From Hypomesus transpacificus (Eukaryota > Chordata > Actinopteri > Osmeriformes > Osmeridae), in assembly GCF_021917145.1 (NCBI RefSeq), contig NC_061073.1, positions 1,266,075-1,330,074 on the forward strand: DNA of 64,000 nt, in the 5' to 3' direction. The position numbers and the translations under genes are program-made. This document shows positions 5,547-61,700 of the stretch, one piece after another. The notes beneath the pieces were generated by a model, which made no database searches, was not told the origin of the DNA, and worked only from the letters and a program-made list of their open reading frames with translations. The stretch's first letter is position 1, and each line of letters opens with the position of its first letter.

Positions 5547-7055
5547 ATCAGTCTATCATTTTGACAATGACAATCATTTTCATGGTAGGTATATTTGAAC
5601 AGTGAGAGACAGAATAACAACAACAAAATCCAGTAAAACGCATGCCAAAATTGTTACAAATGTATTAGCATTTTAATGAGTGAAATAAGTATTTGACCCC
5701 CTCTCGATCAGAAAGATTTCTGGCTCGCAGGTGTCTTTTATACAGGTAACAAGATTAGATTAGGAGTACACTCTTAAAGGGAATGCTCCTAATATTAGTT
5801 TGTTATTTGTACAAAAGACACCTGTTCACAGAAGCAATCAATCAATCAGATTCCAAACTCTCCACCATGGCTGATACCAAAGAGCTGTCCAAGGTAGTCA
5901 GGGACAAGATTGTAGACCTACACAAGGCTGGAATGGTTGGAATGGGCTACAAGACCATCGCCAAGCAGCTTGGTGAGAAGGTGACAACAGTTAGTGCGAT
6001 TATTCGCAAATGGAAGAAACACGAAAGAACTGTCAATCTCCCTCGGTCTGGGGCTCCATGCAAGTTCTCACCTTGTGGAGTTGCAATGATCATGAGAACG
6101 GTGAGGAGTCAGCCCAGAACTGCACCGGAGGATCTTGTTAATGATCTCAAGGCAGCTGGGCCCAAGAAAACAATTGGTAACACACTATGCCGTGATGGAC
6201 TGAAATCCTGCAGCGTCCGCATGGTCCCCCTGATCAAGGAAACACATGTACAGTCCTGTCTGAAGTTTGCCAATGAACATCTGAATGATTCAGAGGAGAA
6301 CTGGGTGAAAGTGTTATGGTCAAAATCGAGCTCTTTGGCATCAACTCAACTCTCCGTGTTCGGAGGAGGAGGAATGCTGCCTGTGACCCCAAGAACGCCA
6401 TCCCCACCATCAAACACGGAGGTGGAAGCTTTATGCTTTGGGGGAGTTTTTCTGCTGAGGGGACAGGAAAACTTCACCACATCAAAGGGACGATGGACGG
6501 GGCCATGTACCGTCAAATCTTGGGTGAGAACCTCCTTGCCTCAGCCAGGGCATTGGGACGTGGATGGGTACTTCAGCATGACAATGACCCAAAACACACG
6601 GCCAAGGCAACAAAGGAGTGGCTCAAGAAGAAGCACATTAAGGCCCTGGTGTGGCGTAGCCAGTCTCCAGACCTTAATCCCATCTGTGGAGGAAGTTGAA
6701 GGTTCGAGTTGCCAAACGTCAGCCTCGAAACCTTATGACTTGGAGAAGATCTGCAAAGAGGAGTGGGACAAAATCCCTCCTGAGATGTGTGCAAACCTGG
6801 TGGCCAACTACTAGAAACCTTCAAGAGTTTTGCCATCACGTACTAAGTCATGTTTTGCAGAGGGATCAAATACTTATTTCACTCTGCAAATCAATTAATA
6901 CCCATTTTGACATGCGTTTTTTCTGGATTTTTTGGTTGTTATTCTGTCTCTCATTGTTCAAATCCTACCATTAAAATGATAGACTGATCATTTCTTTATC
7001 AGTGGGCAAATGTACTAAATCAGCAGGGGATCCAATCTTGTTTCCCTCTCTGTAT
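5547..7055 (+). mobile_element. Tc1/mariner element, degenerate, left end truncated
   Basis: The right flank holds a long inverted repeat whose complement is present at the left from about 5547 (AATCAGTCTATCATTTT and GAGAGACAGAATAACAAC). The outermost part of the right repeat, about 6990-7050 up to the Tc1-like TA end, has no left partner, so the left terminus is deleted or rearranged. A short sequence around 5565-5590 seems duplicated inside the left repeat. Between the repeats lies a broken transposase gene. The copy should be immobile: it lacks a complete left terminus and an intact transposase. Confidence 0.85.
5870..6850 (+). pseudogene. Tc1-like transposase pseudogene
   Basis: Reading starts at MADTKELSKVV (ATG about 5867) and shows the paired-type helix-turn-helix DNA-binding region (IAKQLGEKVTTVSAIIRKW). 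The frame is then lost near 6315. A second frame continues with the catalytic-domain pieces [13 protein letters not shown] and [16 protein letters not shown], ending at an early stop after PDLNPI. A third frame holds the C-terminal KVRVAKRQPRNL and KEEWDKIPPEMCANLV. At least two frame changes and several substitutions rule out function. The family normally encodes a DD34E cut-and-paste transposase of about 340 residues. Confidence 0.88.
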
Positions 7056-9921: not shown

Positions 9922-13075
<3,154 letters not shown>

Positions 13076-42161: not shown

Positions 42162-45100
42162 ATGGCTGCTCTCTTGGACGAACATTTCTCCTCCATGCAA
42201 ATTCTTCTGAAGGTATTCATATCAATATTGCCACTTTAAATACCTAGCTACATCATTAAAAAATCAAGAATTCATTCGTGAAACCAGTTCATACATTTTA
42301 CTATGTTATAATACTTGCTAGCTAGCGAGCTAATATTGAAGAAATATAGAACAAGTTGTCTGAAGACAGGACCGTAAAATAGGGTTAAACAATTCGAGGC
42401 AGGTATTAAGACTAACCCGTGTAGGCCTATTTGAGTTTCTCCTGTCCTAAAACCATATTGTATGTTTTTGTTCTTTTGATGCTAAAGGCTCCATCGAAGG
42501 ACACAGTGCGGCAGCTATGTGCCGACAGTTTCTCTGCAGGATCTCTTGAGTCGATGTTGCTCACTGAAAACACGGCAGGAATTCTCTCCGTATCCGCAAG
42601 TGAGGCCAAACAGGTGGGTGTTGATGTTTTGTAGAATTAATTTAGAATACAGCGGTGTAGGCTATTCATTCGATTGGGTGCGGCCAGGTTGATATGATTG
42701 TATCGAAACATTACCCCCGCTCTATGAAATACAGAAAGACTATTATGAATTTCAGTTGATTTAACATAATTGAGTATTGGGACGAACACACTAATTTGAT
42801 CTAATATTCGAAATCCCCCCTTTACAGAAAGTCAGCTGCCCAAGTTACCGAGCAACTCCATGCCATCAGTTAGTTGGGGTTGGAAAATAGCCTTGTTTTG
42901 TGCAGCAACACATGAGGCAGGCTACTATTCAATTTAGACATTCGTTTTGATGTTCATCGTCGTCGTCGTCGTCATCTGCCGCTTGTCCGGGGATCGGGTC
43001 GCGGGGGCAGCGACCTAAGCAGGGAGGCCCAGACTTCCCTCCCCCCGGCCACTTCCGCCAGCTCTTCCTGGGGGACCCCAAGGCGTTCCCAGGCCAGCCG
43101 AGAGACATAGTCCCTCCAGCGTGTCCTGGGTCTTCCCCGGGGCCTCTTCCCAGTGGGACGTGCCCGGAACACCTCACCAGGGAGGCGTCCAGGAGGCATC
43201 CTAATCAGATGCCCGAGCCACCTCAGCTGGCTCCTCTCGACGCGGAGGAGCAGCGGTTCTACTCTGAGCCCCTCCCGGATGACCGAGCTTCTCACCCTAT
43301 CTCTAAGGGAGAGCCCGGACACCCTACGGAGAAAGCTCATTTCGGCCGCTTGTATTCGCGATCTCGTTCTTTCGGTCACTACCCATAGTTCGTGACCATA
43401 GGTGAGGGTAGGAACGTAGATCGACTGGTAAATAGAGAGCTTCGCCTTTCGACTCAGCTCCTTCTTCACCACGACGGACCGATGCAGAGCCCGCATCACT
43501 GCGGACGCCGCACCGATCCGCCTGTCGACCTCGCGCTCCATTCTTCCCTCACTCGTGAACAAGACCCCGAGATACTTGAACTCCTCCGCTTGGTTCAGGA
43601 TCTCCTCCCCGACCCGGAGATGGCACTCCACCCTTTTCCGGTCGATTACCATGGCCTCAGATTTGGAGGTGCTGATTCGCATCCCAGCCGCTTCACATTC
43701 GGTTGCGAACCGCTCCAGTGAGAGCTGAAGGTCACGGCCCGATGAAGCCAACAGGACCACATCATCCGCAAAAAGCAGCGACCCGATCCTGAGGTCACCA
43801 AACCGGACCCCCTCAACACCCTGGCTGCGCCTAGAAATTCTGTCCATATAGGTAATGAACAGAATCGGTGACATAGGGCAGCCCTGGCGGAGTCCAACCC
43901 TCACCGGAAACAAGTTCGACTTACTACCGGCAATGCGGACCAAACTCTGGCACCGGTCGTACAGGGACCGGACAGCCCCGATCAGGAAATCCGGTACCCC
44001 GTACTCTCGGAGCACCCCCCACATGAGCCCCCGAGGGACACGGTCGAACGCCTTTTCCAAATCCACAAAACATGTGTAGACTGGTTGGGCGAACTCCCAT
44101 GTACCCTCCAGGACTCCGCGGAGGGTATAAAGCTGGTCCACTGTTCCACGGCCAGGACGAAAACCACATTGCTCCTCCTGAATCCGAGGTTCGACAATCC
44201 GACGGACCCTCCTCTCCAGGACCCCTGAATAGACTTTCCCAGGGAGGCTGAGGAGTGTGATCCCCCTAAAGTTGGAGCACACCCTCCGGTCCCCCTTTTT
44301 AAAGAGGGGAACCACCACCCCGGTCTGCCAGTCCAGAGGCACTGTCCCCGATGTCCACGCGATGTTGCAGAGTCGTGTCAACCAAGACAGCCCTACAACA
44401 TCCAGAGCCTTAAGGAACTCCGGGCGGACCTCATCCACCCCAGGGGCCCTGCCACCGCGGAGCTTTTCAACCACCTCGGCGACCTCAGCCCCAGAGATAG
44501 AAGGGCCCCCCCCGATGTCCCCAGACTCTGCCTCCACGTCGGAAAGCGTGTTGGTGGAATTAAGGAGGTCTTCGAAGTATTCCTTCCACCGATCCAGGAC
44601 GTCCCCCGTCGAGGTCAGCAGCGCACCATCCCCACCGTATACAGTGTTGACAGAGCACTGCTTCCCCCTCCTGAGCCGCCGGATGGTGGTCCAGAACCTT
44701 TTTGAAGCCGTTCGGAAGTCATTCTCCATGGCCTCGCCGAACTCCTCCCATGCCCGGGTTTTTGCCTCCGCGACCGCCAAAGCCGCGTTCCGCTTGGCCT
44801 GCCGGTACACATCAGCTGCCTCTGGAGTCCTACCAGCCAATAAAGTCCGATAGGCCTCCTTCTTCAGCTTGACGGCATCCCTCACCTCCGGAGTCCACCA
44901 CCGGGTCCGAGGGTTACCGCCGCGACATGCACCGACCGCCCTGCGGCCGCAGCTCCGGTCAGCCGCCTCAACAATGGAGGCCCGGAACATGGCCCATTCG
45001 GACTCAATGTCCCCGGCCCCCCCCGGGACATGATCGAAGCTCTCCCGGAGGTGGGAGTTGAAGCTCCTTCTGACAGAGGGTTCCGCCAGACGTTCCCAGC

Positions 45101-48100
45101 AGACCCTCACATTACGTTTGGGCCTGCCAGGCCTGACCGGCGTCCTCCCCCACCATCGAAGCCAACTCACCACCAGGTGGTGATCAGTTGACAGCTCCGC
45201 CCCTCTCCTCACCCGAGTGTCCAAGACATGCGGCCCCAAGTCCGATGACACGACTACAAAGTCGATCATCGAACTGAGACCTCGGGTGTCCTGGTGCCAG
45301 GTGCACATATGGACACCCTTATGCTTGAACATGGTGTTCGTTATGGACAAACCGTGTCTAGCACAGAAGTCCAACAACAAAACACCACTCGGGTTCAGAT
45401 CGGGGGGGCCGTTCCTCCCAATCACGCCCCTCCAGGTCTCACTGTCATTGCCCACATGAGCATTGAAGTCCCCCAGGAGGACGAGGGAATCCCCAGGAGG
45501 AGCGCTTTCCAGCACCCCCCCCAGAGACTCCAAAAAGGGTGGGTACTCTGAGCTGCCGTTTGGTGCATAAGCACAAACGACAGTGAGGACCCGTCCCCCC
45601 ACCCGAAGGCGGAGGGAGGCTACCCTCTCGTCCACCGGGGTGAACCCCAATGTACAGGCGCCGAACCGAGGGGAAACCAGTATTCCCACCCCAGCTCGAC
45701 GCCTCTCACCAAGGGCAACTCCAGAGTGGAAGAGAGTCCAGCCCCTCTCAAGGAGACTGGTTCCGGAGCCCACGCTGTGCGTCGAGGCGAGGCCGACTAT
45801 ACCTAGCCGGAAACTCTCTACCTCGCGCACCAGCTCAGGCTCCTTTCCCGCCAGCGAGGTGACGTTCCACGTCCCTAAAGCTAACTTTTGCAGCCGAGGA
45901 TCGGACCGCCAAGGCCCCCGCCTTCGGCCGCCGCCCGTCTCACACTGCACCCGACCCCCATGACCCCTCCTGCGGATGGTGAGCCCACTGGAAGAGGGTC
46001 CCACGTTGTCTCTTCGGGCTGTGCCCGACCGGGCCCCATGGGAAAAGGCCCGGCCACCAGGCGCTCGCCATCGAGCCCCACCCCCGGGCCTGGCTCCAGG
46101 GGGGGGCCCCGGTGACCCGCTTCCGGGCAGGGGCAACTGAGAACCATTGTTGTATTTCTTCATGGTTGGTTTTTTGAGCCACTCTTTGTCTGGTCTTTCA
46201 CCTGGAACCTGTTTGCCTTGGGTGACCCTACCAGGGGCATGAAGCCCCCGACAACATAGCTTCCAGGATCACTAGGACACGCAAACCCCTCCACCGCGGT
46301 AAGGTGGTGACTCAAGGAGGGGCTGTTTGATGTTCATATTTATAAAATATACTTTTACAATTTTCTGGCAGTTATGACTATTGTTAAATTGAATTTATTA
46401 TTACTGAACTTGAATTTAGGCTACTAAAATTTTGTTCATAATCAAAATCTTTTGAACATTCAAATGAGAGTGGCTTTCAAAGAGAAAACAGGTGAGGCCC
46501 AATATGTAATGTCTTTGAACAAAGTATAGTTGTAAGTGAAAGGCGTGTTTTGAGTGTCATTAACTGTAGCACTTATTTTGGAATAATGAAAGAAACTGGA
46601 ATATCTCTACATTTCTCTTTTGTGTTTCCAGCTTCTCGTTGCCCTTCACACTCTATCTCACCACACCTTGTTCCACCACCTGACGTCACCTGAGGAAGTC
46701 TTTGCACTATTCCCAGAGTCTTTCCACCCCAGCCTCAAGAACCTCATCACAAAGATTGTACTTGAACTCAGGTTTGTTGGCCAACTCCACCTCAAGAACT
46801 CATAATCATACAAATTCAAAGATGGTAAAAATAACTTTTAACTGTACAAGTTTGATTAGGGTTTCAAGAGTACACTTCAGGGTTTCCCGCAGAATTGTTT
46901 TGTTAAGGTGGTAGGTTGGGGTTTGCCGTCAGACCGGGGGGGGGGGGGGGGGGGGGGGGTAGTTTATGCAATAAACTAATGCATTCTGCAGAGAAGGGAG
47001 ACTACCGTTGGTCACAGTTTGGAATGAAACAGGACGGAATAACACGTAGTTAAGGCGGCAGGTGGGTGTTGCTTTGGCGGCCCTGCACTTCAGTTTATTT
47101 TTCTGACAGGTGTCATCCTCTCAAATCCTCTCATCCTCTCTTACTAAAATGGTTTGCATATTTTTCTTCAGCCCCACATGGAGAAATGACGCTCTTTCTA
47201 ATCAAAGTAAGTTAGCTTTATTGGTTTAACTATATCTCTAATGTTCTAATGCAAAATGCATGTTTTTCTACATACTTGCAATCAGGGTTTGAATTGTAAA
47301 TGTGTTCCCAAGTTAAGTACTATAGGGTTTGTTAGAAGTGAAAGGTAAATGCATATAGTGCCTTGCAAAATAATTCAACCCCCTGACCAATTCTATCATT
47401 ACAGAATTGCAAATGGTAGATGGCATGTTGTCATTTTATTGTAAAACACTGAAGCTCATCAGTCCTTAATCCAATCGATATCTTATAAAAGAAACAAGAC
47501 AACTCAACATACATAGGCTATAAGTAAAAATGTGTAGAAAAAGCCATTTATGATCATATTGAAATGGAAGAAAAACTCCAAAAGGGGATGTATATATGAA
47601 TAGTGACTGTGCCCTCATGGATTCAAAATGTAGCGGTTTTGGTGTGGCAATGTAACTAAGTAGTTTGCTTTAGGGAATACATCTAGATTACGCAAGCCAG
47701 GTACATAAACTAGGGAGATACCTGTTATTGTTTTTATTTATTTATAGTCAGGCCTCCCTTTTGCCTCTGAGATTGTCATGATGAAGCTTATATAGTGTTC
47801 TCTATTGTTCTCTAAGTGTTGTGTACATTTGTTGATTTTCTTTTTCAGTCTCACTACCCCATCTTGTAGAGATGGACTGGAGAGTTGACATGAAGACAGC
47901 CTCTGACTCTGTGAGTCGTATGGCTGTTCCCACCTGTTTGGTGCATATGAAGGTACTGGATGCAGACAATACAATCCATCTGTCCCTTATGTTTCCCACT
48001 GACGTGTACAGTACAGTACCATCAATGAATAAACATTTCTTGCATACATGGACCTCCTGAAGTCTGTGATATGCAGTTGGTTGATGCCTATTTGTCAGTC

Positions 48101-58700: not shown

Positions 58701-61700
58701 CTCAGCTTTGGGTGTCTTTTTGTATGTTGTTTTACCGCTCAGTACAATGTTTGGGGAATTGTGTGATGTCACTCACAGTGTATCCAGCTCTGGCGCTTAG
58801 ATGTTCAGCAGCCACCAGGAGTGCATTGAAAGTAGCCCCTCCACTCCCCAGGCGCTGCAGAGGGTCTGACACAGTGAGCAACAATGTCCGTTTTGGAATA
58901 CATCCACGCTGCTGTCTCAACTGTAGCTCTGAGAAAAACACATACAGATTATTTCACACAACGTATTTGTAAATGTAAAGATGTGTTTCCTGTGGCACTA
59001 AAGATACACATAAACTAGGCTACTACAAGAACAAACAATCGGGCATTCCTATATATAACTCATCACTCATGTTGGCTATAGAGAATTATTTGTAGATTTT
59101 TTTTAAATTGTTTATACAAATGTTATCTGACATGATTATTCTTATGTATGTAGATTTTGTTTTACAACTTTGGTTTTGGGTTAGACCGCTAGGAAACACT
59201 CCCCAAACAGACAGAAAAATTACTTGAAACATTGTGTTAAGTGTGTCATGTGACATGCAACAGTTGGTGGTAAAACAGCGAGGTGAAGTTAGTTTCATAT
59301 TCGACATTTGACATTCGTCTCACACTCGGAAGACAAGTTTTTTTTTTATAAATAAATTGCTAATCTCTGAAAACAGCATTAAAGCTGTGCTAAATTAAAT
59401 TCTGACCAATGGTCACACAGCTGCAAGTCAACCAGGAGCTAGGCTGTGGTTTAATTGTGACAGCATAACCAACGTGTATTTGCACCAATATGCTTTCCAC
59501 CAAATGCATCAGAGCCAGGGAGATGGACAGGAAGGAACCAGGAACTCTGTGTGGTCCATCAAAGGAGATCAAAGTCCACTTGGGGACTAGGTCCATCATT
59601 GTCCCACCAGCATCCAGGCCGATGTTGACAGCTCAACCCCCCAACACCAGAAGGGAGGTCAGATGGGCAACAGAGAGAAGAAAGTATAATTGGAGAATGC
59701 AAAGCGACAAATAACAATTACAATAATAATATGGGTGAGGTCCCCACCAGTCAAGTGTGATTTAGTGCAGTAGTTAAGCAAACTAAAGAGTTTTTGATGT
59801 AGCCCTAAACGCCAGGACAGCACCAGCCACCCTAGATTAGAAAAGGAAGTATGTTCCAGGTAAGAGAAACTGTATACACAAATGCTTGTGTATACAGAGA
59901 TGGGTTGCCTCCCTACGCCTATTAGTTGTGGGGGGGGGAACTCTGACTGTTGTCTGTGCATATGGACCGAACAGAAGATCAGAGTATTTAGCCTTTTTAG
60001 GGCCCCAGTGGGGGACTCCATAGTGCTGCTGGGAGACTTCAACGAGTACGTGGAAAGTGACAGGGACACCCGGAGAGACATGATTGGGAGGAAAGGCCTC
60101 CCTGATCTGAACCCAAATAGGTGTTTGTTTTTGTATTTTTGTGCTCGTCATGGATTATCTATAACAAACACCATGGTCGAACATAAGGATGCTCATAAGT
60201 GTACGTGGTACCAGAGCACCCTAGGCCGAAGGTCGATGATTGATTTTGTCATCATGTCGTCGGATCTGAGGTTGTATGTTTTGGAGTTTTCAACCTATCA
60301 CCATGTTGTGGTGAGTTGGGTCAGCGGGTGGGGGAAGACTCTGGACAGACCTGGTAAACCCAAGCGAGTAGTGAGGGTGAGATGGGACCGTTTGGAGGAG
60401 GTCCCTGTTTGTGAAATCTTCAACTCACACCTCCAGCGGAGTTTCTCAGGTATCACTGCGGAGGTTGGGGGCATTGAACCAGAGTGGGCAATGTTCAAAG
60501 CCTCCATTGCTGAAGCCGCGGTGGAGAAATGCAGCCTCTGAGGTAGTGACCACTGAGGTCGCCATACAACTCCACGGTGGCAAAGCCCAGGGATTCTTGC
60601 TCTTCTTGGGTGATCCAATCCCTGTACTTCCAAAGCGAAAGTTGTGTCCGGGTCCTCGGCAAAAGTTGAGTTTGTTCAGTGTGGGGGTGAGTCTCCGCAA
60701 GGGCTGTGCTTTGTCACCAATCCTGTTTGTGATATGTTCTGGACAGGATATTGAGCCGTAGTCGGGGTGGGGAAGGGTTGCGGTTCGGTGGGCTGGGGAT
60801 TTCATCGCTACTTTTTGCAGATGTAATCTTCTTGTCATGATTGGTCTGTGACCTTCAGCACTCACTGGATCATTTTGCGGTTGTGGTGGTTGTGGCTCAG
60901 GGGGTAGAGAGGGTTGTCTGTTAATCGCAAGGTTGGTGGTTCGATCCCCGACTCCTCCTAGGTCATGTGCTGAAGTATCCTTGAGCAAGACTCTGAACCC
61001 CAAGTTGCTCCCGATGGACAGGCCGGCGCCTCTCATGGCAGCTCGCTGCCGTTGTTATGTGTGAGTAAGAGTATGAATGGGTGAATGAGAGGCAAACATT
61101 GTGACTGGTGGCTGGTGTCTCCCTTAGAGATAGGGTGAGGTGCTCAGTCATCCGGGGGGAGCTCGGAGTAGAGCCGCTGCTCATTTGCGTCAAAAAGAGC
61201 CAGTTGAGGTGGTTTCTGGCCTCTGGTAAGGATACTGATAAGTAAAGGGTGTGGAAGTAGGCGAAGCATTACGAGAATACTCTGGTGTATATTTGAGATT
61301 TTTTGACACACATTTGAAAAATATGTTGAGATTAGCAAGGATTTCATGCTATGTTCAGAGATTAGCAGTTTTCTATCATTCTTTTAAAAACATTGAAAAA
61401 GTAAAGGGTGTGGAAGTAGACCAGACATTATTAGAATAATTTGGTGACAGTTTGAGGTTTTATATCCATAAAGATATAATAAAAGTCATAATTTTTCAAA
61501 ATTGTATGGGTAATTTTCACCCGGTCCCTAACTCGACGACGTAAAGTAGCGTCTTCCGAATGTGAGACGAATGTCGAACATGAAACTGACTTCACCTTGG
61601 TTTGAAAAACCAGGAAATCCAGCGATGTTGGACTTCTGAAATTGACAACAAATTACCTAATAATATAAATTAATTGGTAAATTCGTTGGCCACATATATT

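Follow-up and report, generated by a model that had tools for sequence, protein, structure and literature searches.

The minus strand between 46323 and 46163 of the window (the whole 64,000-nucleotide stretch of Hypomesus transpacificus DNA that was analysed) holds the 5' leader of a LINE that encodes endonuclease and reverse transcriptase in a single reading frame, and the question that it raises is whether this leader encodes an HDV-like self-cleaving ribozyme and where such a ribozyme would cut. HDV-like ribozymes at the 5' ends of RTE LINEs go back to Ruminski et al. 2011, as cited in passages of PMC3774820 and PMC11620745, and a passage of PMC3774820 states cleavage at the 5' junction for the R4, L1 and RTE ribozymes. 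According to portions of PMC3774820 and PMC7761336, the ribozymes of R2 and other LINEs release the RNA of the element from host transcripts, and a section of PMC4035085 reports functional HDV-like ribozymes from fish. A literature search found no description of this fish LINE family. On the basis of sequence comparison and modelled pairing we regard it as rather likely that the 5' leader of this young RTE-type LINE is an HDV-like self-cleaving ribozyme of ~147 nt (46322-46176, minus strand). The element is numbered from nt 1 at window position 46323 on the minus strand (nt n = window position 46324 minus n) and comprises the following features:

42972-46322, minus strand: RTE-type LINE, apparently young and many-copy
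42972-46163, minus strand: open reading frame that has 1063 aa when counted from its first ATG and encodes endonuclease and reverse transcriptase (Pfam domain matches)
46326-46337, minus strand: 5' copy of the target-site duplication ATGAACATCAAA, from the sequence; 3' copy at 42946-42957

Pfam matches in the reading frame are RVT_1 (2.2e-32) and Exo_endo_phos_2 (1.1e-7), and the 3' tail of the window copy consists of GAC-repeat units. The features of an RTE-type LINE that are present are one endonuclease and reverse transcriptase frame, a short-repeat tail and, in the window copy, a target-site duplication of 12 bp; the assignment to RTE is provisional and follows the name given in the original prediction and a general likeness.

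Copies of the element were sought in the organism's own genome (437 Mb). With the leader as a DNA query 341 candidates came up; the best 40, which were scored, were all 99-100% identical. A search with the endonuclease domain gave 589 candidates, 150 of which were scored and listed; open frames of at least 1000 aa were counted by hand in about 115 of the 150 listed. Sixty of the listed matches (rows 11-70 of the 150) served as a sample selected independently of the 5' end, and the leader is carried by 50 of them in nearly identical form. The near-identity of the leaders, together with the many long open frames, indicates that the LINE family is young. In three copies (L092, L093 and L095) the element was matched in separate gapped blocks, like internally deleted derivatives that retain the leader.

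Other elements were found in the window and elsewhere. A decayed second RTE-like piece lies at 59882-61250 (about 62% amino acid identity in the endonuclease) and recurs in L010-L012 with shared non-element flanks, as if captured by another repeat; the leader gave no match in the RTE piece at 59.9-61 kb or in L010-L012. An open reading frame of 343 aa at 5783-6814 is a candidate Tc1-type transposase by its general likeness. A search with RVT_1 gave 7320 candidates, 150 of which were scored; of the eight loci loaded, six align to the LINE reading frame at 22-28% identity and two do not align, which suggests that they represent other lineages. Regarding relatives with a leader, IMG/VR gave none and the one relative found in GTDB (L019) is 5' truncated. 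The latter is a stretch of 171 bp, 87% identical to the LINE, at a contig end in a genome labelled Epulopiscium (MDJM01000023.1). Since Epulopiscium dwells in fish guts, host DNA in a bacterial bin is the likely source.

Regarding the 5' end of the 60 sampled copies, 47 start at window position 46322 (C, nt 2), where the common element sequence opens with CCCCTCC, and the same edge is used by 19 of 30 copies of an older subfamily (described below). The other starts were at nt 3, 5 and 16 (one copy each) and at nt 149, 150 and 177 (one copy each). The leader is absent from seven of the 60; one of the seven (L079) has a weak match at 151, and L028, which has an apparent start at nt 2 but a chance-level score, was counted as being without a leader. 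Two of the 60 copies (L050 and L056) start at the A run (nt 149-150) just before the start codon, perhaps by microhomology.

This edge corrects the cut of the original prediction, which had been placed before the G at 46323, two bases inside the target-site duplication. In the window copy the duplication is ATGAACATCAAA and is separated from CCCC by CAG, so the cut does not fall two bases inside it; the shared edge lies one base further in, at 46322. A G precedes the edge in only 13/47 young copies; the G at 46323 therefore lies outside the shared element, the predicted cut falls at 46322, and the G-U pair that had been proposed for the first position of P1 is not general. A cut at the G of 46323 was rejected as a general rule. 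A preliminary descriptor that required a G at the cut matched 46323 only.

G is nevertheless mildly over-represented before the edge: the older copies have it there in 8/19 cases, and both sets together in 21/66, compared with a G content of 18% in the flanks (P 0.005 combined; young copies, P 0.08; older copies, P 0.01), which amounts to some nine copies of 66 over background. A capped start that was copied with its cap, bases added on ending reverse transcription, or microhomology could each produce it. The first of these touches on an explanation without catalysis, in which transcription would begin at 46322 from an internal promoter, the leader being no more than an untranslated region that is structured and rich in GC. 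A fixed transcription start would likewise yield a uniform edge, the G excess could be cap-derived, and neither covariation nor an Rfam match was found (see below). The excess is small, however, and may also be explained by microhomology or added bases, and the promoter leaves unaccounted for an HDV-type core sitting at the very edge where shuffled sequences almost never place one. We consider this explanation unlikely and return to the ribozyme.

The core parts of the layout of the HDV and CPEB3 ribozymes, with the conserved U, C and G of an HDV-type L3 in their usual places, can be drawn at the shared edge as follows:

46316-46322, minus strand: 5' strand of P1, CCCCUCC (nt 2-8), beginning at the edge shared by 47/60 copies; predicted cleavage immediately 5' of 46322
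46314-46315, minus strand: J1/2 (nt 9-10, 2 nt long); at nt 9 the young subfamily has T and the older one C
46303-46305, minus strand: 5' strand of P3, ACC (nt 19-21), from the descriptor
46296-46302, minus strand: L3 loop (nt 22-28), UUACCGC, opening with U and having C and G at the third- and second-last positions
46293-46295, minus strand: 3' strand of P3, GGU (nt 29-31), with the 3' strand of P1 directly after it
46286-46292, minus strand: 3' strand of P1, GGAGGGG (nt 32-38), from the sequence
46285, minus strand: U39, possibly a one-pair P1.1 with A24 of L3, from the sequence

Counted from the shared edge, P1 consists of seven Watson-Crick pairs (nt 2-8 with 32-38). The GGU of P3 (46293-46295) runs straight into the 3' strand of P1, which bears out the earlier claim that P3 abuts P1. 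The HDV-type features predicted here are thus a P1 of ~7 bp at the predicted cut, a P3 abutting P1 and an L3 with U, C and G. A conserved C and G in L3, plus a U-G pair, are given for HDV-like ribozymes in a passage of PMC3774820; the G in question (G27) is kept in 50/50 young copies and changed in 4/25 of those older copies in which this position is present. In P1.1 only A24 and U39 are able to pair, giving one A-U pair at best; a P1.1 of one or two pairs is mentioned in a part of PMC4908430.

The choice of P2 determines the extent of the motif and the candidate catalytic C, and involves the following features:

46306-46313, minus strand: 5' strand of the favoured P2 (P2b), GAGUCACC (nt 11-18); partner 46176-46184
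46198-46202, minus strand: 3' strand of a rival P2 (P2a), GGUGA; partner 46306-46310; pairing broken by U124C in the older subfamily
46185-46188, minus strand: J4/2, C136-A-A-A, from its spacing to the 3' strand of P2; C136 (46188) is the proposed catalytic C
46176-46184, minus strand: 3' strand of P2b (nt 140-148) with a variable bulge at nt 141 (46183), from complementarity and the subfamily comparison

Of the four helices P1-P4 claimed originally, P1, P3 and a P4-type arm can be drawn, but the P2 (CUUG/CAAG) is weak, with a helix energy of about -1.0 kcal/mol, and does not reach P3. It was rejected together with its catalytic C in TCACC, for which C136 (46188), or C119 (46205) under the rival P2, is a better candidate. 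The motif, which had been ended at 46214, accordingly extends with the better P2 helices to 46198 or, better, to 46176 (38 nt further).

P2b combines seven continuous pairs (nt 11-17 with 142-148) with C18-G140 around the bulge at nt 141; without C18-G140 it lengthens to 9 bp (nt 9-17 with 142-150), and a helix of at least 9 bp from nt 9-18 was found in 0.76% of 168,868 tail shuffles. According to a part of PMC4908430 the ribozyme described there was inactive when no spacer separated P1 from P2, and the outermost two P2b pairs should therefore not form in the active fold. P2b then leaves a J1/2 of 2 nt, and C136-A-A-A ahead of its 3' strand. C136 is kept in 50/50 young and 29/30 older copies; it lies 18 nt past the P4 arm, with a possible 3-bp hairpin inside that stretch in the young family. 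The bulged nt 141 (46183) is polymorphic for A and C (C in 27/62 copies, T in one), and the variable position coincides with the bulge of the predicted P2.

The same ribozyme could instead be built with the short P2a (UCACC 46310-46306 with GGUGA 46202-46198), with C119 (46205) as the catalytic C and an end at 46198; P2a and P2b are mutually exclusive. P2a offers five Watson-Crick pairs (nt 14-18 with 122-126) directly abutting P3, C-N-A precedes its 3' strand, and nt 118-128 are left free by the nested optimum of nt 2-128. The helix is weak, however (-5.4 vs -8.7 to -11.3 kcal/mol for P2b), and cheap by chance, a P2a-type helix being present in 416 of the 1300 shuffles with P1 and P3 at the edge, or about a third. 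In the older subfamily U124C breaks P2a without compensation and leaves P2b intact, and standard pairs are found in 80% of P2a cells vs 98.5% of P2b cells in older copies, P2b having been chosen partly after the older subfamily was seen. We therefore hold a ribozyme with P2a to be decidedly unlikely and favour P2b.

The occurrence of the HDV-type core was compared with chance using descriptors that follow knowledge of the HDV ribozyme. On both strands of the 64-kb window the first full descriptor (with P2a) matched only 46322 and, with another P2 partner, 46323; the final descriptor, which asks for a P2 of at least 7 bp, gave 46322 as its single match. Among 272,607 dinucleotide shuffles of the leader, 1300 had P1 and P3 at the edge, 8 also had L3, 3 had L3 and P2, and none matched the first descriptor in full; the final descriptor was matched at the edge in 0/186,147 shuffles, in 41 when the L3 rule was dropped and in 1 when the L3 rule was dropped but C-N-A-A kept; since the rules were tuned with this site in view, all of these rates are optimistic, perhaps ten- to a hundredfold by our own estimate. 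Irrespective of position, P1, P3 and L3 together are not rare: they occur in the window at three places with a G first (about 0.9 expected) and at five with any first base. The weight of the descriptor evidence comes from the place of the match and from P2.

The older subfamily was reached by way of a pattern that skips the common 3' strand of P1; it returned eight copies, three of them with shared changes, and no compensating change in P1 was found among the eight. A second pattern, which itself permits few changes at nt 117-148, gave 32 matches of the older subfamily, 30 of which were loaded. Within nt 2-148 the consensus of the older subfamily differs from that of the young one at nt 9, 83, 124, 128 and 141; two further differences, at nt 157 and 170, lie outside this stretch. 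All five differences within nt 2-148 are unpaired in the model with P1, P3, P4 and P2b (nt 9 only without the outermost P2b pairs), for which the chance is about 1.4% (63 of 147 positions are unpaired), or about 4% if P2b is left out, the differences at nt 117-148 being limited by the design of the second pattern. The helices of this model are intact in both subfamily consensuses, in which the P2b pairs are all standard.

Compensatory double changes, which the original prediction had proposed to seek among genomic copies, were seen in no helix when 50 young and 30 older copies were compared, an outcome that by the standard of that prediction goes against it. This is a weak test because the copies are nearly identical; as the helices hardly vary, the absence of covariation neither favours the fold nor rules it out. 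Single copies carry uncompensated changes, as expected of decaying copies; one such change, at nt 101 of the P4 arm, is present in 5/70 copies, a count that includes eight copies chosen for changes at nt 33-37, so that those sites are no evidence. Some of the copy sets overlap (L004 = L076, L095 = L110 and L090 = L117 are the same places), with no known repeat within the 50 and 30 copies.

The remaining helix, and the folds that compete with the model, were assessed by folding energy:

46207-46282, minus strand: P4-type arm (nt 42-117), a long imperfect stem-loop, from folding energy

The fold of nt 39-118 has -31.5 kcal/mol (z -2.1; 6/200 shuffles were equally good), whereas the energy of the 110 nt delimited originally is not unusual (z -0.96), and whole-motif energy is uninformative. 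Within nt 2-128, P1, P3 and P4 together reach -45.3 kcal/mol vs -46.3 kcal/mol for the nested optimum, which contains all of P1 and the arm, not the 3-bp P3. For nt 2-165 without flank the nested optimum has the arm and 7/8 pairs of P2b, and no P1; with 40 nt of natural upstream flank it has none of the pairs of P1 (0/7), P2a (0/5) or P2b (0/8). Nested folding is blind to pseudoknots, but these optima show that the leader has strong competing folds.

Rfam was searched at gathering scores across the whole window, with three SNORA71 and no HDV-type family found, and within E 10 in 46150-46400, with one weak plant-virus promoter hairpin only. The covariance-model check that had been suggested thus gave no HDV-family match at E up to 10, which likewise goes against the original prediction. 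It is a weak test because the Rfam models are not known to catch every HDV-like ribozyme, and a model match is evidence of family membership, not part of what defines the fold. The three SNORA71 lie in a row on the minus strand (10081-10207, 11133-11259 and 12005-12131), presumably in introns of one gene. A ribozyme of another class, e.g., a truncated twister, of which conserved examples at RTE 5' ends are given in a part of PMC7761336, is highly improbable, as no other class is needed to complete the HDV layout and the Rfam search of 46150-46400 within E 10 gave the plant-virus hairpin only.

Modelled pairing and sequence comparison thus point to a leader that is probably a real HDV-like ribozyme, its mechanism being known and the LINE family a new example. 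The original proposal, an RTE-type LINE headed by such a ribozyme, holds in outline, with the predicted cut at the shared edge, the descriptor statistics and the subfamily differences in its favour, and gives way in its details.

As far as known systems are described in the portions of the literature cited, the leader is like the HDV-like ribozymes of RTE elements in heading a LINE of RTE type, in its predicted cut at the 5' junction and in its HDV layout, a likeness taken from citations; it is unlike them in its very long P4/J4 and in lacking an Rfam match of HDV type. With the R2 ribozymes, as described in passages of PMC3774820, it shares a P1 of 6-7 bp, a P2 of at least 5 bp that is often mismatched, the C and G of L3 and a variable P4. 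According to the same passages, R2 inserts at a specific site of 28S rDNA and its ribozyme often cuts within the rRNA sequence upstream, whereas the insertion sites of the fish LINE differ among copies and its predicted cut is at the element edge. Pr77 of L1Tc/SIDER, as presented in a section of PMC4035085, likewise starts with a C at +1 of the LINE 5' end and can be inhibited by a downstream segment, which we list as a likeness to the fish leader; it differs in belonging to the trypanosomatid L1Tc/ingi clade and in having about 77 nt, against about 147 nt in the fish. The likeness to HDV and CPEB3 (parts of PMC4908430) consists of the order P1-P2-P3, the P3 abutting P1, the 7-nt L3, the short J1/2 and the C-N-A-A before P2; unlike them, the fish leader has a P1.1 of at most one pair, a bulge in P2 and 18 additional nt that separate P4 from the proposed catalytic C.

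In the proposed mechanism, a host transcript started at a host promoter would read into the element, and the RNA would fold in three dimensions into a nested double pseudoknot with a P1 of 7 bp, a P2 of 7-8 bp, a P3 of 3 bp, a weak P1.1 and a long P4. C136 would help to cut just before the C at 46322, and the element RNA would be freed with a fixed 5' end as seen in most copies, giving rise to full-length copies. The start codon of the LINE lies 12 nt beyond P2b and thus beyond the predicted end of the ribozyme, a gap that, by way of speculation, leaves room for coupling to translation. We also put forward, as an improbable idea, a two-state ribozyme, in which the young subfamily would have gained a P2 (46202-46198) that is transcribed early and competes with the older P2 (46184-46176), which is transcribed later. 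By analogy with the downstream-segment switch of L1Tc, transcription might then time first the cutting and then the exposure of the start codon.

If the cutting is true, it would explain how this vertebrate LINE could obtain copies that are full-length and share a fixed 5' end, by way of host transcripts and self-trimming. Given the near-identical leaders and the long reading frames in about 115 of the 150 listed matches, the family would then be a convenient vertebrate system for the study of ribozyme-dependent retrotransposition, and HDV-like ribozymes would be present in one more animal LINE lineage.
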